Positions 52,062 through 56,905 of a DNA stretch of 64,000 bases are shown piece by piece. The DNA comes from Pseudacidovorax sp. NFM-22. GTDB taxonomy: Bacteria; Pseudomonadota; Gammaproteobacteria; Burkholderiales; Burkholderiaceae_C. The notes below the pieces were generated by a model. The model was not told the DNA's origin. It saw only the letters and a list, made by a program, of their open reading frames with translations, and did not search any database. Position 1 is the stretch's first letter, and each line of letters opens with the position of its first letter. The stretch lies in NCBI RefSeq assembly GCF_021401245.1, contig NZ_JACBFY010000002.1:124001-188000 (forward strand), written 5' to 3'. The translations under genes and the position numbers were made by a program.

Positions 52062-52160
52062 GCTCGGGCGAAGGCCACTGAGCCGGCAAGACCCGCGCGG
52101 CCGGAACAAGAAGAAGGCCGGCCACCGGCAGCACACTTCGGCGGCGGCCTCCCACTCACC

Positions 52161-52754
52161 TCATGCCCTGGCAATGGGCAATGAAGCGCCTGTGGCGGGC
52201 GCAGGTGTCTGGGCAGCGTTCATGACCATCGCCAGCAGGCTGTAGTAGCCGACGGTGCCGACCAGGTCCATGACGCCCTGCTCTCCCCACAGGGCGACGG
52301 ACGCTGCCCAGGTGGCGTCCTTCAGCGCCCTGTCCCGCAGGATCTCGGTGCAGACCTCGTAGACCACCTGCTCGTCCCGCGGCATTGCAGAGGGGGTTGC
52401 GTGGTGAGCGATGGCGTCGATCGTTGCACTGTCGACGCCTTCGCTTTGCGCAATCGGGGCGTGGATCGCCCACTCTGCGCCCTGGTCCCAGAAGCGCGCG
52501 GTGACCAATATCGCCAGCTCGGTCAGCCGCTGTCCGATGGTGTTCCGGTAGCGCAGGTATTCGCCCATGCGCTGGCAGTGGCCCATGAGTTCCGGGCTTC
52601 GCAGAAGCGGGACAAAGGGAGAGATCAGCTTGCCGCGCGGGCCCGCGATGATCTCTTGCGCCTGCGCCCGCTGCGCGTCCGTCCATTGCGCCTCGGGAAG
52701 CGGCGGCAGCCGGTCTTCCCGCGCTTCGGTCTTGTGGGATTCCATCGTGCTCAT
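52161..52754 (-). CDS. carboxymuconolactone decarboxylase-family protein
   Basis: This 197-residue helical CMD/AhpD-family protein contains the core RLTELAILVTARFWDQGAEWAIHAPIAQSEGVD at about 80-112. The redox Cys-x-x-Cys of AhpD is absent, so it belongs to the decarboxylase-type branch (PcaC-like), which decarboxylates or isomerises ring-cleavage lactones. Its start overlaps the Bug gene's stop (ATGA). With the PcaD-like hydrolase two genes upstream, a ring-fission lower pathway is suggested, though substrate is unknown. Length is longer than PcaC (about 130) owing to N- and C-terminal extensions. Confidence 0.8.
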   Translation of the reverse strand: MSTMESHKTEAREDRLPPLPEAQWTDAQRAQAQEIIAGPRGKLISPFVPLLRSPELMGHCQRMGEYLRYRNTIGQRLTELAILVTARFWDQGAEWAIHAPIAQSEGVDSATIDAIAHHATPSAMPRDEQVVYEVCTEILRDRALKDATWAASVALWGEQGVMDLVGTVGYYSLLAMVMNAAQTPAPATGASLPIARA

Positions 52755-53740
52755 TCCGGCTGGATTCCGGCGCGCTTCGCGAGCATGCCGTAGCGGCTGA
52801 TGTCGCTGTGCAGGAGCTCCGCGAGCTGACCCGGCTCGCCGCCCACCGGCACCAAGCCCTGCTGCGCCAGGACCTGACGCATGCCCGGATCACCGAGCGC
52901 GGCTCGCACGTCGGCATTCAGGGCGGCGATGACGGCGTCCGGGGTTCCGCGTGGGGCAAAGAGGCCGTACCACAGCGTCATCTCCAGCCCCTGCAGACCG
53001 CTTTCGGCAAAAGTAGGAACGTTCGGGAATTCCGCACTCCGGCGCTTGGCCGCGAATGCCAGGGCCCTCAGGCGACCCGCCTGCAACTGCGGCCCGACGC
53101 TGGGCGCCGAGCCGATCAGGAACTGCACGTCTCCGGCCATCAGTGCGGTGACGGCCTCTCCTGCGCCTTTGTAGGGAACATGGACCGCCTGCACGCCGGC
53201 GACATTGAGGAAGTTCTCGGCGGCCAGGTGAAAGGCGTTCCCCACACCGGGAGAGGCATAGGCCAGCTTGGCGCCCGGCCGCTTGGCCGCCGCGATGAAG
53301 TCGGCGAGCGTCTTGGCGGGGTTCGCCGCATTGACGACGAACAGCATGCCTTCGGCCGCACAGACTTCCACCACCGGCCGCAGGTCGCGTTCCGTATCGA
53401 ACGGGAGCTTCTTGTAGATGCTGGGGTTGATGGCCAGGGAAGGACCATGCAGGAGCAGGGCATGACCATCCGGCGGCGCCTTGGCCACGATGTCGGCACC
53501 GATGTTTCCATTGGCGCCCGCACGGTTCTCGACGATGAAGGTCTTTGCCGTCCGCTGATCCAGGACGTTGGCCAGGAGGCGGGCGACGATGTCGGGCGCA
53601 CCGCCCGTACCGAAGGGAACGATGATGCGCGTCACCCGGTTGTCGCGCTCCTGCGCCAGCACCGGCGGCACGCCGCCCAGGCAGGCTGCGGCGGCCAGTG
53701 TGAAGAGGAAGGACTTTCTGCTGATTCCAGAGTTGGACAT
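52751..53740 (-). CDS. Bug/TctC-family substrate-binding protein (third in window)
   Basis: This 329-residue secreted binding protein has a signal peptide (SFLFTLAAAACLGGVPPVLA). The mature Bug core starts VTRIIVPFGTGGAPDIVARLLANVL, with VENRAGANGNIGADIVA following. HVPYKGAGEAVTALMAGDVQFLIG is typical. It differs substantially from the two at 22-24 kb and so probably binds another carboxylate. It is transcribed with the CMD protein and sits 64 bp behind an alpha/beta hydrolase, so capture of the module's substrate is likely. Confidence 0.9.
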   Translation of the reverse strand: MSNSGISRKSFLFTLAAAACLGGVPPVLAQERDNRVTRIIVPFGTGGAPDIVARLLANVLDQRTAKTFIVENRAGANGNIGADIVAKAPPDGHALLLHGPSLAINPSIYKKLPFDTERDLRPVVEVCAAEGMLFVVNAANPAKTLADFIAAAKRPGAKLAYASPGVGNAFHLAAENFLNVAGVQAVHVPYKGAGEAVTALMAGDVQFLIGSAPSVGPQLQAGRLRALAFAAKRRSAEFPNVPTFAESGLQGLEMTLWYGLFAPRGTPDAVIAALNADVRAALGDPGMRQVLAQQGLVPVGGEPGQLAELLHSDISRYGMLAKRAGIQPE

Positions 53741-53804
53741 GGTGTCTCCAATGGGGGGTCCGCCATGCCTGGCGGCCTCTTTCTGCGCCCGGTGGGCCGG
53801 TACT

Positions 53805-54575
53805 TCAAGGTTGCAGGAAGGCGTCCAGCGTCTCGGTGAACGTCGCCGCCTGCTCGACATGGCTCATGTGCGCGGCGTCGCCCATCAACCGGAACTCGGC
53901 CCCCGGGATGCCCGCGGCCAGCGCTTGCGAGACCGCCGGGGAAACAGCCATGTCCTTCTGCCCCGCGATGACGAGCGTCGGCATCTGCAACCGCGCCAGC
54001 GACGCGACGTGGTCCAGGCCGCAGATGGCATGGACGGCCGCGATGTAGCCCGCCAGAGCGGTGTCGGCGACCATGCGGCCAATCCAGTCGCTCGCCGCGG
54101 GCGCACGGCCCAGGAAGTCCGGCGTGAACCAGCGGTCCAGCGTCGGACGGACTTGCTGCGCCATGCCGCCGGCCTGTGCGTCCGCCACCCGCTGCTGCCA
54201 GAGGGCGATCACCGGCGCAGGTGTCACCGCGCCGCAATGGGCAAGCACCAGTCGGCGGATCCGGGACGGGGCCACGAGCGCCATCGCCTGGGCCACCATG
54301 CCTCCGAACGACAGGCCTGCCACGGAAAACTCGTTCAGGCCGAAGGGTTCGAGTGCGCCCAGGACCGCAGCGGCGTAGTCATGCAACGCCGCCCCCGGCG
54401 GCAGCGGCGCAGAGCCGCCATGTCCGGGCAAATCCGGAACGATGACCCGGAAGCGCCGCGCCAGGATCGGAACCTGCAGGCCCCACACCTCGGCGCGGGT
54501 CGCGATGGGATGGAGCAGGACGATGGCTGGCGCGGACTCCGCGCCGAAGACCTCCAGCTTGAGCGACCCGGTCAT
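53805..54575 (-). CDS. alpha/beta hydrolase, 3-oxoadipate enol-lactonase (PcaD)-like
   Basis: This 256-residue alpha/beta hydrolase has the nucleophile elbow GLSFGGMVAQAMAL at about 94-107, the oxyanion HP motif LLHPIATRAEVW, the acid Asp in GQKDMAVSP and the catalytic His in MGDAAHMSHVEQ. PcaD and related lactonases have the same pattern and length. Its start overlaps the upstream hydrolase stop (ATGA). Together with the CMD protein this would echo the PcaC/PcaD couple of the beta-ketoadipate pathway, but substrate identity is inference. Confidence 0.82.
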   Translation of the reverse strand: MTGSLKLEVFGAESAPAIVLLHPIATRAEVWGLQVPILARRFRVIVPDLPGHGGSAPLPPGAALHDYAAAVLGALEPFGLNEFSVAGLSFGGMVAQAMALVAPSRIRRLVLAHCGAVTPAPVIALWQQRVADAQAGGMAQQVRPTLDRWFTPDFLGRAPAASDWIGRMVADTALAGYIAAVHAICGLDHVASLARLQMPTLVIAGQKDMAVSPAVSQALAAGIPGAEFRLMGDAAHMSHVEQAATFTETLDAFLQP

Positions 54576-55729
54576 CCCGCAACCCCCAGTTGCCCCGCCA
54601 GCCAGGAGACGATGGTGGGCAAGGTCTGCGGCGTCAGGCCCATGTGCCCGCCCGGAAACAGGCGCACATGCTTGGGATTGCCGTGTTCGGTCAGCAAGTG
54701 CAGATCCTCGATCGGGCATTGCTTGTCCTCGCGCCCGTTGACCAGCAGCAACGGTGCGCTGCGGCGGTCGAGCAGGCCCTGGTCGAGCAAGGACAGGCGC
54801 TTGAAGAACGCCAGGTACTCGTCGTCGTTGCGGGCACCCAGCATGCGGCAGCGGGTCTCCACGAGCCCCATCAGGTAGCTGTCCGGGTAGCGCGAGGCGC
54901 CGATCCAGTCGGGCTGGAACATGTAGTGCGCGCCGCCGCCCCAATTCACCGCGCCCCGCAGCCTGTCGGGGTAAAGCAGGGCCAGCTTGGTGGCCCAGTA
55001 GCCGCCGAAGGAACGACCCAGGCACGCAAGGCGCTGGCCGTCGAGGTCGGACTGGGTGGCGATCCAGTCGAACACCGTCGTGAACTGCCGCTCGGCGTCC
55101 TGCACACCCTTGACCGGCGACTCCCCCGTGCCGGCGTTGTCCATCGCGACCGTCGCGATACCCAAGGCCAGCAGGGCGTCGCAGGCCTGGGTCATCTGCT
55201 CCTTCCAGGCATCGACACCTCCCCACATGACCACGACGGGAGGACGCTCGACATTCGCGGGCCTGCGCAGCAATGCGGTGATCGTGTCGCCCTCGCCCGC
55301 CCTGCCCGCGAATGGAATGCGCACCACCTGCACCGGCAGCTTCCAGAGGCGGGCGGCCCTCAGGTAGGTTTCACGCTCGAGCTCGGCGCAGCGCAGCTTG
55401 GCTGGGTGATCCGGGCATGGGAAACGTCCCATGAAGTAGAGGCCGCTCGCCTTCATGAACAGTCGGCAGGCCTCGTCCAGCGACCCCGCCTGCTCGGCCC
55501 TTTCAGCGGATGCGCTGCAGGCATCGCCGGCCTCGCGCCAATGAGCAGCCCACTCGGCGCCGCCGAGTCCGGGCAGGCGGTCGATCAAGTCGATGCCTTC
55601 GTCCGCATCCAGCGCGTTCATCGGGTGGGTCCGGGAGCGCAGTCGGGTCTTCATCCAGATGCGCGCCTCGGCCAGCGTCTTGGGACGGCCCTGGATATCG
55701 CCGTCCGGCTTTTGCTGCTCATCCTGCAT
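54572..55729 (-). CDS. alpha/beta hydrolase with N-terminal helical domain (FrsA / 2,6-dihydropseudooxynicotine hydrolase-like)
   Basis: This 385-residue hydrolase has about 130 N-terminal residues that are helical and charged, ahead of an alpha/beta hydrolase core. VVVMWGGVDAWKEQM at about 168-182 is characteristic of the FrsA/DHPON hydrolase group, which cleaves C-C bonds in diketones. The nucleophile elbow is CLGRSFGGYWATKLAL near 239, and the His in FPGGHMGLTPQ near residue 365 completes the triad. It is the first gene of the module, opposite a LysR regulator with a LysR box between. A C-C bond hydrolase acting on a ring-derived ketone is plausible. Confidence 0.75.
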   Translation of the reverse strand: MQDEQQKPDGDIQGRPKTLAEARIWMKTRLRSRTHPMNALDADEGIDLIDRLPGLGGAEWAAHWREAGDACSASAERAEQAGSLDEACRLFMKASGLYFMGRFPCPDHPAKLRCAELERETYLRAARLWKLPVQVVRIPFAGRAGEGDTITALLRRPANVERPPVVVMWGGVDAWKEQMTQACDALLALGIATVAMDNAGTGESPVKGVQDAERQFTTVFDWIATQSDLDGQRLACLGRSFGGYWATKLALLYPDRLRGAVNWGGGAHYMFQPDWIGASRYPDSYLMGLVETRCRMLGARNDDEYLAFFKRLSLLDQGLLDRRSAPLLLVNGREDKQCPIEDLHLLTEHGNPKHVRLFPGGHMGLTPQTLPTIVSWLAGQLGVAG

Positions 55730-55813
55730 GGGGTCTCCTGTTCAATCGACGTTCTTCGGGACGGGACTGTGCCAGCGGGCGGCCATAAACAAAAACTGTT
55801 CTTTTGGATTCGA

Positions 55814-55834
55814 ACTATTTGTCTGTCCTATAGT
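55814..55834. promoter_or_regulatory. LysR box ACTAT-N11-ATAGT
   Basis: Perfect 5-bp arms separated by 11 bp, ACTAT (55814-55818) and ATAGT (55830-55834), fit the T-N11-A LysR consensus. The box lies 6 bp upstream of the LysR start codon and 84 bp from the hydrolase start in the divergent gene. It is the best-formed regulator site in the window. Confidence 0.6.
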
Positions 55835-55840
55835 TCTCGG

Positions 55841-56773
55841 ATGCGCATCAACCGGCTGGACCTCAATCTGCTTGCATGCCTGGACGCCTTGCTGGCCCAC
55901 CGGAACGTCAGCAGGGCCGCAAAGCAGATGCACCTCAGCCAGCCCGCCACCAGTGCCGCGCTGGCCAGGCTCAGGGACTACTTCCAGGACCCCTTGCTGC
56001 TGCGGGAGGGCCGGCACTACGTGCTGTCGCCATTCGCGCAGTCCCTGATCGACCCCGTGCGGGACATCCTTTCGCGCGCGCAGGCGCTGACACAGCTGCG
56101 GCCCGAGACGGACCCTCTGCGCATGGAGCGGAACATCACGATCGTGGCGTCAGACTATGTGTTCAGTACCGTCCTGGTGCCTTTGTTCCGGATCGCCGAG
56201 ACGGCCGCGCCCCGGCTCACATTCGCCGTCCGGCCGGTCTCGGGGTACGACTCGCCCGAACTGGAAGACCAGCATGTCGACCTGGTGCTGCTGGGCGCCT
56301 CCGCCGTCGCCAGCCATCACCCGAGCGAGCTGCTTCTGTCGGATTCGTTCTGCTGCATCGCGTGGGCGGAGAACCCCTTGATCGGCCGGACCCTCTCGCT
56401 GAAGGCCTTCCAGAAGGTGGGGCACGTCGTGCCACTGCTCGGCGACGGAAGATTGCCGACCCTGGATCAGGTCGCGTACGAGATGCAGGGCGTCGTGCGA
56501 CGGATCGCGATGCGGGTCCCGACCTTTTCGGCCGTGGCGGAATGCGTGGTCGGCACCTCGCACATCGCCACCCTTCCGAAATCCTTCGCCAAGGGCCTGT
56601 TGAAGACCCTGCCGCTGCGGCTGATGACATGCCCCATCCACATACCACCCGTGCGCATCGCGATGCAGTGGCACCGGCATCAGGCGGACGACCCGGTGCT
56701 GCGCTGGGTGCGGCGCAACCTGCAGGAGGTGGCGGTGCAGCAGGGCTTCGTCCGCCCGCACTCTCCGTCGTAG
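55841..56773 (+). CDS. LysR-family transcriptional regulator (NahR/NodD-like)
   Basis: This 310-residue LysR begins MRINRLDLNLLACLDALLAHRNVSRAAKQMHLSQPATSAALARLRDYFQDPLLLREGR; this wording is that of the NahR/NodD/PnbR branch, whose members respond to aromatic compounds. The effector half has TIVASDYVFSTVLVPLF and LLLSDSFCCIAWAENPLIGRTLSLKAFQ. It is divergent from the hydrolase/Bug/CMD module and most likely its activator, responding to an aromatic inducer (inference). Confidence 0.9.
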   Translation: MRINRLDLNLLACLDALLAHRNVSRAAKQMHLSQPATSAALARLRDYFQDPLLLREGRHYVLSPFAQSLIDPVRDILSRAQALTQLRPETDPLRMERNITIVASDYVFSTVLVPLFRIAETAAPRLTFAVRPVSGYDSPELEDQHVDLVLLGASAVASHHPSELLLSDSFCCIAWAENPLIGRTLSLKAFQKVGHVVPLLGDGRLPTLDQVAYEMQGVVRRIAMRVPTFSAVAECVVGTSHIATLPKSFAKGLLKTLPLRLMTCPIHIPPVRIAMQWHRHQADDPVLRWVRRNLQEVAVQQGFVRPHSPS

Positions 56774-56905
56774 GCATTGGCGGCGGGTGCCCGGCGAAGT
56801 CGACGGCTGAATCGGCGCTGGAGGCACCCCTGCGCTCTTGGGCATGACGACACCGAAGGTCCGCGCTGCCATGAGGATGTGGCGCCCCGGGCAAAATCGC
56901 GGCCC

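Follow-up and report, generated by a model that had tools for sequence, protein, structure and literature searches.

The stretch of DNA analysed here, referred to as the window, spans 64,000 nucleotides of the genome of Pseudacidovorax sp. NFM-22 (C14:124001-188000, on contig NZ_JACBFY010000002.1) and contains an operon of four open reading frames (ORFs) on the minus strand, in the order HYD, PcaD-like, Bug and CMD, facing away from a LysR gene. The four genes lie where the initial annotation of this DNA had placed them, and Pfam assigns their products to the FrsA-like, Abhydrolase_1, TctC and CMD families (searches with the PcaD-like, Bug and LysR proteins were run on slightly longer frames). 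Two of the junctions, HYD/PcaD-like and Bug/CMD, are ATGA overlaps. The features of the locus are as follows (DHPON, 2,6-dihydroxypseudooxynicotine).

54572..55729, minus strand: HYD, a two-domain alpha/beta hydrolase of 385 aa of the Ayg1/DHPON-hydrolase type, a predicted C-C hydrolase with triad Ser240-Asp335-His362
53805..54575, minus strand: PcaD-like alpha/beta hydrolase of 256 aa, its start within the ATGA overlap with HYD, scoring under the PcaD equivalog cut-off
52751..53740, minus strand: Bug (TctC) periplasmic solute-binding protein of 329 aa, an orphan in an operon without a permease gene
52161..52754, minus strand: CMD/AhpD-fold protein of 197 aa with conserved Glu79/Glu94/His98 and no CxxC, in ATGA overlap with Bug, present in two of the four cassette-bearing strains
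55841..56773, plus strand: LysR regulator, divergent from HYD
55812..55836, no strand: candidate LysR-type operator GAACTAT-N11-ATAGTTC, between LysR and HYD
52062..56853, no strand: the cassette LysR-HYD-PcaD-Bug, with or without CMD, found in four of 15 genomes of the genus, two of which carry CMD

The product of the first gene, HYD, matches the FrsA-like Pfam family (1.2e-17), and its score against the NCBIfam FrsA equivalog (83.1 bits, under a cut-off of 477 bits) places it outside FrsA proper. Its nearest solved proteins by sequence are fungal Ayg1-type hydrolases (1.1e-47 and 4.2e-45), followed by DHPON hydrolase (2e-11). Foldseek and VIA-align comparison of an AlphaFold model (mean predicted local distance difference test score, pLDDT, of 92.0) put Wdyg1p/Afyg1p at the top (Z 47; Z 47.4 over 373 residues for 8qd7) and DHPON hydrolase and FrsA after them (Z 38; Z 38.3 over 339 residues for 2jbw), and the model displays the helical N-domain and alpha/beta hydrolase domain of the Ayg1/DHPON-type architecture. 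Residues Ser240, Asp335 and His362 are invariant across 44 aligned sequences and align, with a hand-counted chain offset of 17 residues, with Ser257, Asp352 and His380 of Afyg1p, given as its catalytic triad in PMC11165489. The initial annotation had held that the lack of a catalytic triad would refute its proposal; the Ser-Asp-His residues are present, and together with the fold they predict a C-C hydrolase of the Ayg1/DHPON type.

The remaining products of the operon are less readily assigned. The PcaD-like protein belongs to Abhydrolase_1 (6.1e-25), and the CMD protein passes the Pfam CMD cut-off barely (5.7e-05; 23.5 against 23 bits), with a model (pLDDT 83.3) that yields weak Foldseek matches to CMD/AhpD proteins, the first being a CMD-family protein at 3.5e-04. 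Read at face value, these assignments would describe a canonical protocatechuate/beta-ketoadipate lower pathway with a true PcaD and PcaC, a reading that the PcaD NCBIfam match (1.2e-55) and the CMD-family match recommend and that we consider very improbable. The PcaD-like protein reaches 188.7 bits against the equivalog cut-off of 255.85 bits and is outscored on that model by another gene of the same genome (242.5 bits, also under the cut-off), the CMD protein has no NCBIfam match at 0.001, and the dioxygenase linked to HYD in other genomes (see below) is extradiol, not intradiol. Canonical PcaD and PcaC identities were accordingly rejected on the model cut-offs. Residues Glu79, Glu94 and His98 of the CMD protein are invariant in 11 sequences, and the protein is dispensed with in two cassette-bearing strains (G006 and G010). 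AhpD peroxidases carry a CxxC redox pair, which the CMD protein does not have; its only cysteines, C60 and C135, are common to some of its relatives and do not lie in a CxxC, so that its earlier description as Cys-less holds for the active-site position, where no redox cysteine is found, and fails for the protein as a whole. The Bug protein has a TctC domain (2.7e-72) and an N-terminus that is hydrophobic as judged by eye; its nearest solved protein is Bug27, followed closely by a putative exported protein and the terephthalate binder, and since such relatives mirror the family more than the ligand, the ligand is not readable from the sequence.

The nearest solved relatives of the divergent LysR include a 'PCP degradation transcriptional activation protein' and entries named simply 'LysR-type regulatory protein', which we take to be DntR, in agreement with its earlier designation as an aromatic-type regulator. 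The intergenic region between LysR and HYD contains a perfect T-N11-A palindrome, GAACTAT-N11-ATAGTTC, that 0 of 100 shuffles of the window match at two or fewer mismatches and that has no second copy in the 6.4 Mb genome when one mismatch in the core is allowed. In three sister strains both arms of the palindrome are altered together (AAACTAT/ATAGTTT), as expected of an operator. Relatives of this LysR also occur in two of the LigAB-bearing clusters described below (L052:4769-5674, 49%; L054:12045-12959, 55%), the latter directly after the PcaD-like gene.

We scanned genome contigs with peptide patterns derived from a 5-sequence alignment, and 50 of the 122 stretches obtained were confirmed as relatives of HYD; because the patterns stem from five sequences, the scan favours close relatives. 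The 29 closest full relatives (L041-L069) are 56-97% identical to HYD. Three of them are from Pseudacidovorax, and the neighbours of the 26 others (56-82%) were tallied over flanks of up to 9 kb with identity and coverage cut-offs of our own setting; a further relative (L072, 50%) was set aside, its contig ending within HYD. In all 26 loci HYD is followed by LigA, and LigB comes next in 25, the exception (L064) encoding the first 96 residues of LigB before the contig ends. A flavin-dependent monooxygenase (FMO) is present within 25 of these loci, a PcaD-like gene in 21, a Bug gene of some kind in 15, a CMD homolog in 8 and a molybdenum hydroxylase in 6; as Bug genes are common in the genomes concerned, their count by itself says little. 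Four loci (L053, L057, L060 and L068) present the order HYD-LigA-LigB-PcaD-Bug-CMD, that is, the order of the window with LigAB added. The presence of an extradiol gene beside HYD in all 26 loci, together with the triad and fold of HYD, makes it probable that the hydrolases of the operon act on a ring-fission product, as the initial annotation had proposed.

Pfam and NCBIfam searches on the LigA, LigB and FMO proteins were confined to the copies of the Herbaspirillum locus L045. Pfam supports the LigB and FAD_binding_3 assignments, with LigA falling narrowly short (24.8 bits, cut-off 25.3 bits). LigB has 11 NCBIfam matches, every one of them under its cut-off, and its best solved matches are gallate and protocatechuate 4,5-dioxygenases. 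Among the matches listed for FMO, the only cut-off passed is that of PRK06847 ('hypothetical protein'), the HpxO and 3-hydroxybenzoate models staying far under theirs; the top solved match is 6-hydroxynicotinate 3-monooxygenase (NicC), with a flavoprotein monooxygenase, presumably HpxO (urate), close behind. Because FMO clears PRK06847 alone and NicC is merely the top solved match, these results do not fix its substrate. The molybdenum hydroxylase of a Pusillimonas cluster matches CO dehydrogenase, quinoline 2-oxidoreductase and 6-hydroxypseudooxynicotine dehydrogenase. The presence of molybdenum hydroxylase genes in 6 of the 26 loci, the matches of the Pusillimonas enzyme and the top match of FMO mildly favour an N-heteroarene as the putative substrate. 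The pyridine-related substrate suggested in the initial annotation stays a conjecture that these data neither bear out nor contradict.

An annotated Rhizobium plasmid presents, in a row, HYD, a 'subunit of meta cleavage enzyme', LigB, a FAD monooxygenase, an alpha/beta hydrolase and a molybdenum hydroxylase; the records of Novosphingobium humi and R. tropici are without usable annotation in this region. On a Rhodococcus plasmid, a 44% HYD homolog is flanked on one side by a Rieske dioxygenase/SDR set and on the other by a VOC-family gene. The VOC family is that of the type I extradiol enzymes, and this neighbour would fit an extradiol enzyme with a different fold; if it is one, dioxygenases of two unrelated families occur next to HYD, which would point to a role of HYD in ring fission in general. 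A plasmid of Rhizobium rosettiformans carries a '3-keto-5-aminohexanoate cleavage protein' gene (L127:9112-9960) directly before HYD, with CoA-transferase genes nearby, which hints that a beta-keto acid arises downstream.

Phylogenetic inference on HYD (59 rows, quick search) placed the Pseudacidovorax sequences with those of Delftia, Curvibacter and Pseudorhodoferax inside the LigB-linked clade, and not among unrelated esterases, a grouping that the initial annotation had considered damaging to its proposal. Support for the grouping with these three genera was 99 in the Shimodaira-Hasegawa-like approximate likelihood ratio test (SH-aLRT, the only support measure computed). The tree omits L041 (97% identical to the window copy), the truncated L072 and three loci without HYD; seven of its rows were flagged as long branches, the outgroup does not form one side of any branch, and L064 is labelled as lacking LigB although its contig ends there. 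By this operon, the closest named relative of the window strain is P. intermedius DSM 21352, with a HYD copy 97% identical; it bears the cassette, and no LigAB ortholog was found in it.

Several observations concern the wider hydrolase family. Two remoter relatives of HYD (L013:1172-2353 and L014:1423-2604) have N-termini that resemble an export signal on visual inspection, and the family may therefore include a secreted branch; a metagenome-assembled genome (MAG) of Candidatus Eremiobacterota carries a tandem pair of HYD-like genes (L089:1203-3388). FrsA/DHPON-type hydrolases often adjoin Bug genes, as do both paralogs in the window genome (L033 and L034, on C17 and C19) and 15 of the 20 relative loci L013-L032 within flanks of about 1.5 kb, a count to be read with the abundance of Bug genes and the origin of many of the 20 loci in two related genomes (G131 and G178) in mind. 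Three contigs (L078, L085 and L088) titled 'Bordetella parapertussis' bear environmental isolate codes and look like MAG naming errors.

None of the three Pseudacidovorax loci has LigAB adjoining HYD. The initial annotation had stated that no ring-opening oxygenase is present, which is true of the window and does not extend to the genome: just left of the window lies a set of FMO, LigA and LigB genes orthologous to those found beside HYD elsewhere. LigB (C14:122337-123155, 62% identical to the Herbaspirillum protein, in a frame that extends to 123164) ends 836 bases before the first base of the window, with the near end of the operon some 53 kb further on; LigA precedes it, and FMO (56% identical to the Herbaspirillum protein) occupies C14:120527-121642. 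LigB retains His12, DDH, GGISH and EEIRNW, which we take to be functional positions. Among the genomes of the genus, relatives of the LigA, LigB and FMO found beside other HYDs occur in the same genome as the cassette in NFM-22 and in G010. Identities to the Delftia, Curvibacter and Pseudorhodoferax proteins are 77-82% for HYD, 75-77% for FMO, 78-80% for LigB and 71-82% for LigA; HYD and its separated partners diverge in step, the pattern that components of a single ancestral unit would show. The FMO gene is in turn adjoined by a VanA-type Rieske oxygenase gene (L106:11334-12386, left of the window) and an MFS transporter gene. Relatives of this oxygenase lie beside FMO in three Herbaspirillum clusters (31-33%), and L050 contains another (44%), which suggests that a VanA-type Rieske oxygenase may stand in for the molybdenum hydroxylase as entry enzyme.

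Taken together, we propose, with a probability of about 0.6, that the operon supplies the hydrolases of a meta-cleavage unit whose other half is a hydroxylase with LigAB, and that it has been split off as a LysR-controlled cassette. In this scheme, FMO would convert an aromatic or N-heteroaromatic compound into a vicinal diol by hydroxylation and the two-subunit LigAB-type extradiol dioxygenase would open the ring, as their families suggest; HYD, as a serine hydrolase of the Ayg1/DHPON type, would cleave the beta-diketone-like (vinylogous) ring-fission product at a C-C bond, and a further lactone, ester or amide bond would be hydrolysed by the PcaD-like enzyme. In NFM-22 the unit would be divided between FMO//LigA-LigB at one locus and HYD-PcaD-Bug-CMD about 53 kb away under LysR, the two acting in trans.

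The cassette was likely acquired as one unit. G005 and G008 lack it, the flanking sequences being 12 bases apart in the former and separated by 771 bases in the latter, and its G+C content (0.677, against 0.707-0.715 around it) is matched or undercut by 2.4% of 593 equal-sized stretches of the window. A search of its borders for direct repeats returned nothing beyond 8 bases of GC-rich sequence. HYD is found in four of the 15 genomes of the genus, that of the window included. LigB is present at 97-100% in two, with G008 holding only a 39% relative; FMO is present at 95% in G010 besides the NFM-22 copy, and 46% relatives occur in G009 and G014, both without HYD.

Several of these results weigh against a split unit. 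In two HYD-bearing genomes, G006 and G011, the searches returned neither LigB (E<=1e-40) nor FMO (E<=1e-60), and a ratio of nonsynonymous to synonymous substitution rates (dN/dS, pairwise here and throughout) of 0.059 between their HYD genes shows conservation, so that HYD seems to be retained there without its LigAB/FMO partners. Co-occurrence across the genus is weak, both LigAB genomes falling among the four HYD genomes of 15 (p = 0.057, by hand). Even with three mismatches allowed, the LigAB locus contains no copy of the cassette palindrome, so the two loci share no operator, and G170 carries LigA-LigB-FMO (L109:375-3501) without HYD in the 3.8 kb covered. The G170 genes stand beside a GntR-like frame (identified by eye), and a 36% HYD relative lies on another contig of that genome.

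Some of these results lend substance to an alternative that we deem unlikely, though not negligibly so, namely that the cassette acts on its own, importing through Bug a diketone or ring-fission product made elsewhere and hydrolysing it without LigAB. The purifying selection on HYD in the two genomes without LigAB or FMO orthologs at these thresholds agrees with such scavenging, as do the cassette's own regulator, palindrome and periplasmic binder and its clean absence from G005. Set against it are the adjacency of HYD to LigA and LigB in the 26 other ortholog loci and the missing permease gene, and other dioxygenases of G006 and G011, below the thresholds used, could serve. Uptake of a ring-fission product is possible mainly for these two strains.

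The selection estimates bear also on whether HYD has changed function. Against the window copy its dN/dS is 0.068-0.073, and between the window genome and G010 LigB (0.061) and LigA (0.083) give similar values; the PcaD-like gene is less constrained (0.14-0.28, against 0.06-0.07 for HYD). That relaxation, and the inclusion of polyketide-trimming enzymes in its family, could indicate that HYD, once separated from its former neighbours, turned into a plain esterase or amidase acting on plant-derived or polyketide-like compounds and assisted by the PcaD-like and CMD proteins. We regard this as improbable given the 77-82% identity of HYD to LigAB-linked counterparts and the invariance of its triad residues in the 44-sequence alignment.

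The split-unit proposal gives an operon without an assigned purpose the standing of a testable half-pathway, its partner named within the same genome, and points to a conserved, apparently uncharacterised ring-cleavage unit in 26 other loci. What appears to be new is the LigAB-linked unit and its splitting, not the four genes alone. A bolder and still doubtful extension is that FMO-HYD-LigA-LigB-PcaD constitutes a ring-cleavage pathway not yet described, whose substrate would probably be a hydroxylated N-heteroarene and in which the usual BphD-type meta-cleavage hydrolase is replaced by one of the Ayg1 type. Molybdenum hydroxylases or VanA-type Rieske oxygenases would then serve as interchangeable entry enzymes, and Pseudacidovorax would hold the pathway as two cassettes, of which some strains retain just the lower and feed on ring-fission products that others release. 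If the split-unit assignment is correct, Ayg1/DHPON-type enzymes would form a second class of meta-cleavage-product hydrolase beside the BphD class. The strains with the cassette and without LigAB orthologs offer a natural test of bacterial scavenging of such products.

The literature covered yielded analogous clusters and none recognised as this one; most subscription papers lay outside that coverage, which makes the description of the unit as undescribed a weak one. With the class III extradiol dioxygenases LigAB and DesB, the unit shares the LigB Pfam family, but its LigB has a predicted C-C hydrolase as neighbour, and all NCBIfam matches of the Herbaspirillum copy fall under cut-off. DHPON hydrolase of nicotine breakdown (2jbw) resembles HYD in fold family (Z 38) and in its C-C hydrolysis, predicted for HYD, and differs in sequence (about 21% identity). 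The nicotine pathway to which it belongs also has a molybdenum hydroxylase and a flavin monooxygenase and, to our knowledge, no extradiol dioxygenase.

The kpi pathway for 4-hydroxypyridine and the mimosine pyd pathway share with the unit a FAD_binding_3 monooxygenase, extradiol opening of a dihydroxypyridine and an alpha/beta hydrolase, which in kpi acts after ring opening; KpiC, however, is an amidohydrolase-family dioxygenase (PMC7356986). PydA belongs to the LigB family and bears the motifs DDHFENH and EWICGM (PMC3637104), and its homology to the cluster LigB, which has neither motif, was rejected. In the daidzein-induced ifc isoflavone hotspot of Variovorax, an FMO likewise occurs together with a candidate for ring opening and with an alpha/beta hydrolase that resembles DHPON hydrolase (locus 59470, 25%), but the ring opener is a putative, FdeC-like glyoxalase (locus 59430) and not LigAB (PMC11069340). 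In the naringenin pathway, FMO hydroxylation precedes A-ring fission (PMC8552027); the likeness of ifc and of the Herbaspirillum naringenin system (fde, as cited in PMC11069340) to the unit is drawn from their descriptions.

The closest structural counterparts of HYD remain the polyketide-shortening hydrolases Ayg1 and Wdyg1p (8qd1 and 8qd7), which share its two-domain fold (Z 47, 371-373 aligned residues), its aligned Ser-Asp-His triad and, as predicted for HYD, the hydrolytic cleavage of a C-C bond adjacent to a keto group. They are 27-30% identical to HYD and operate in fungal melanin biosynthesis, whereas HYD is found in bacterial LigAB clusters.

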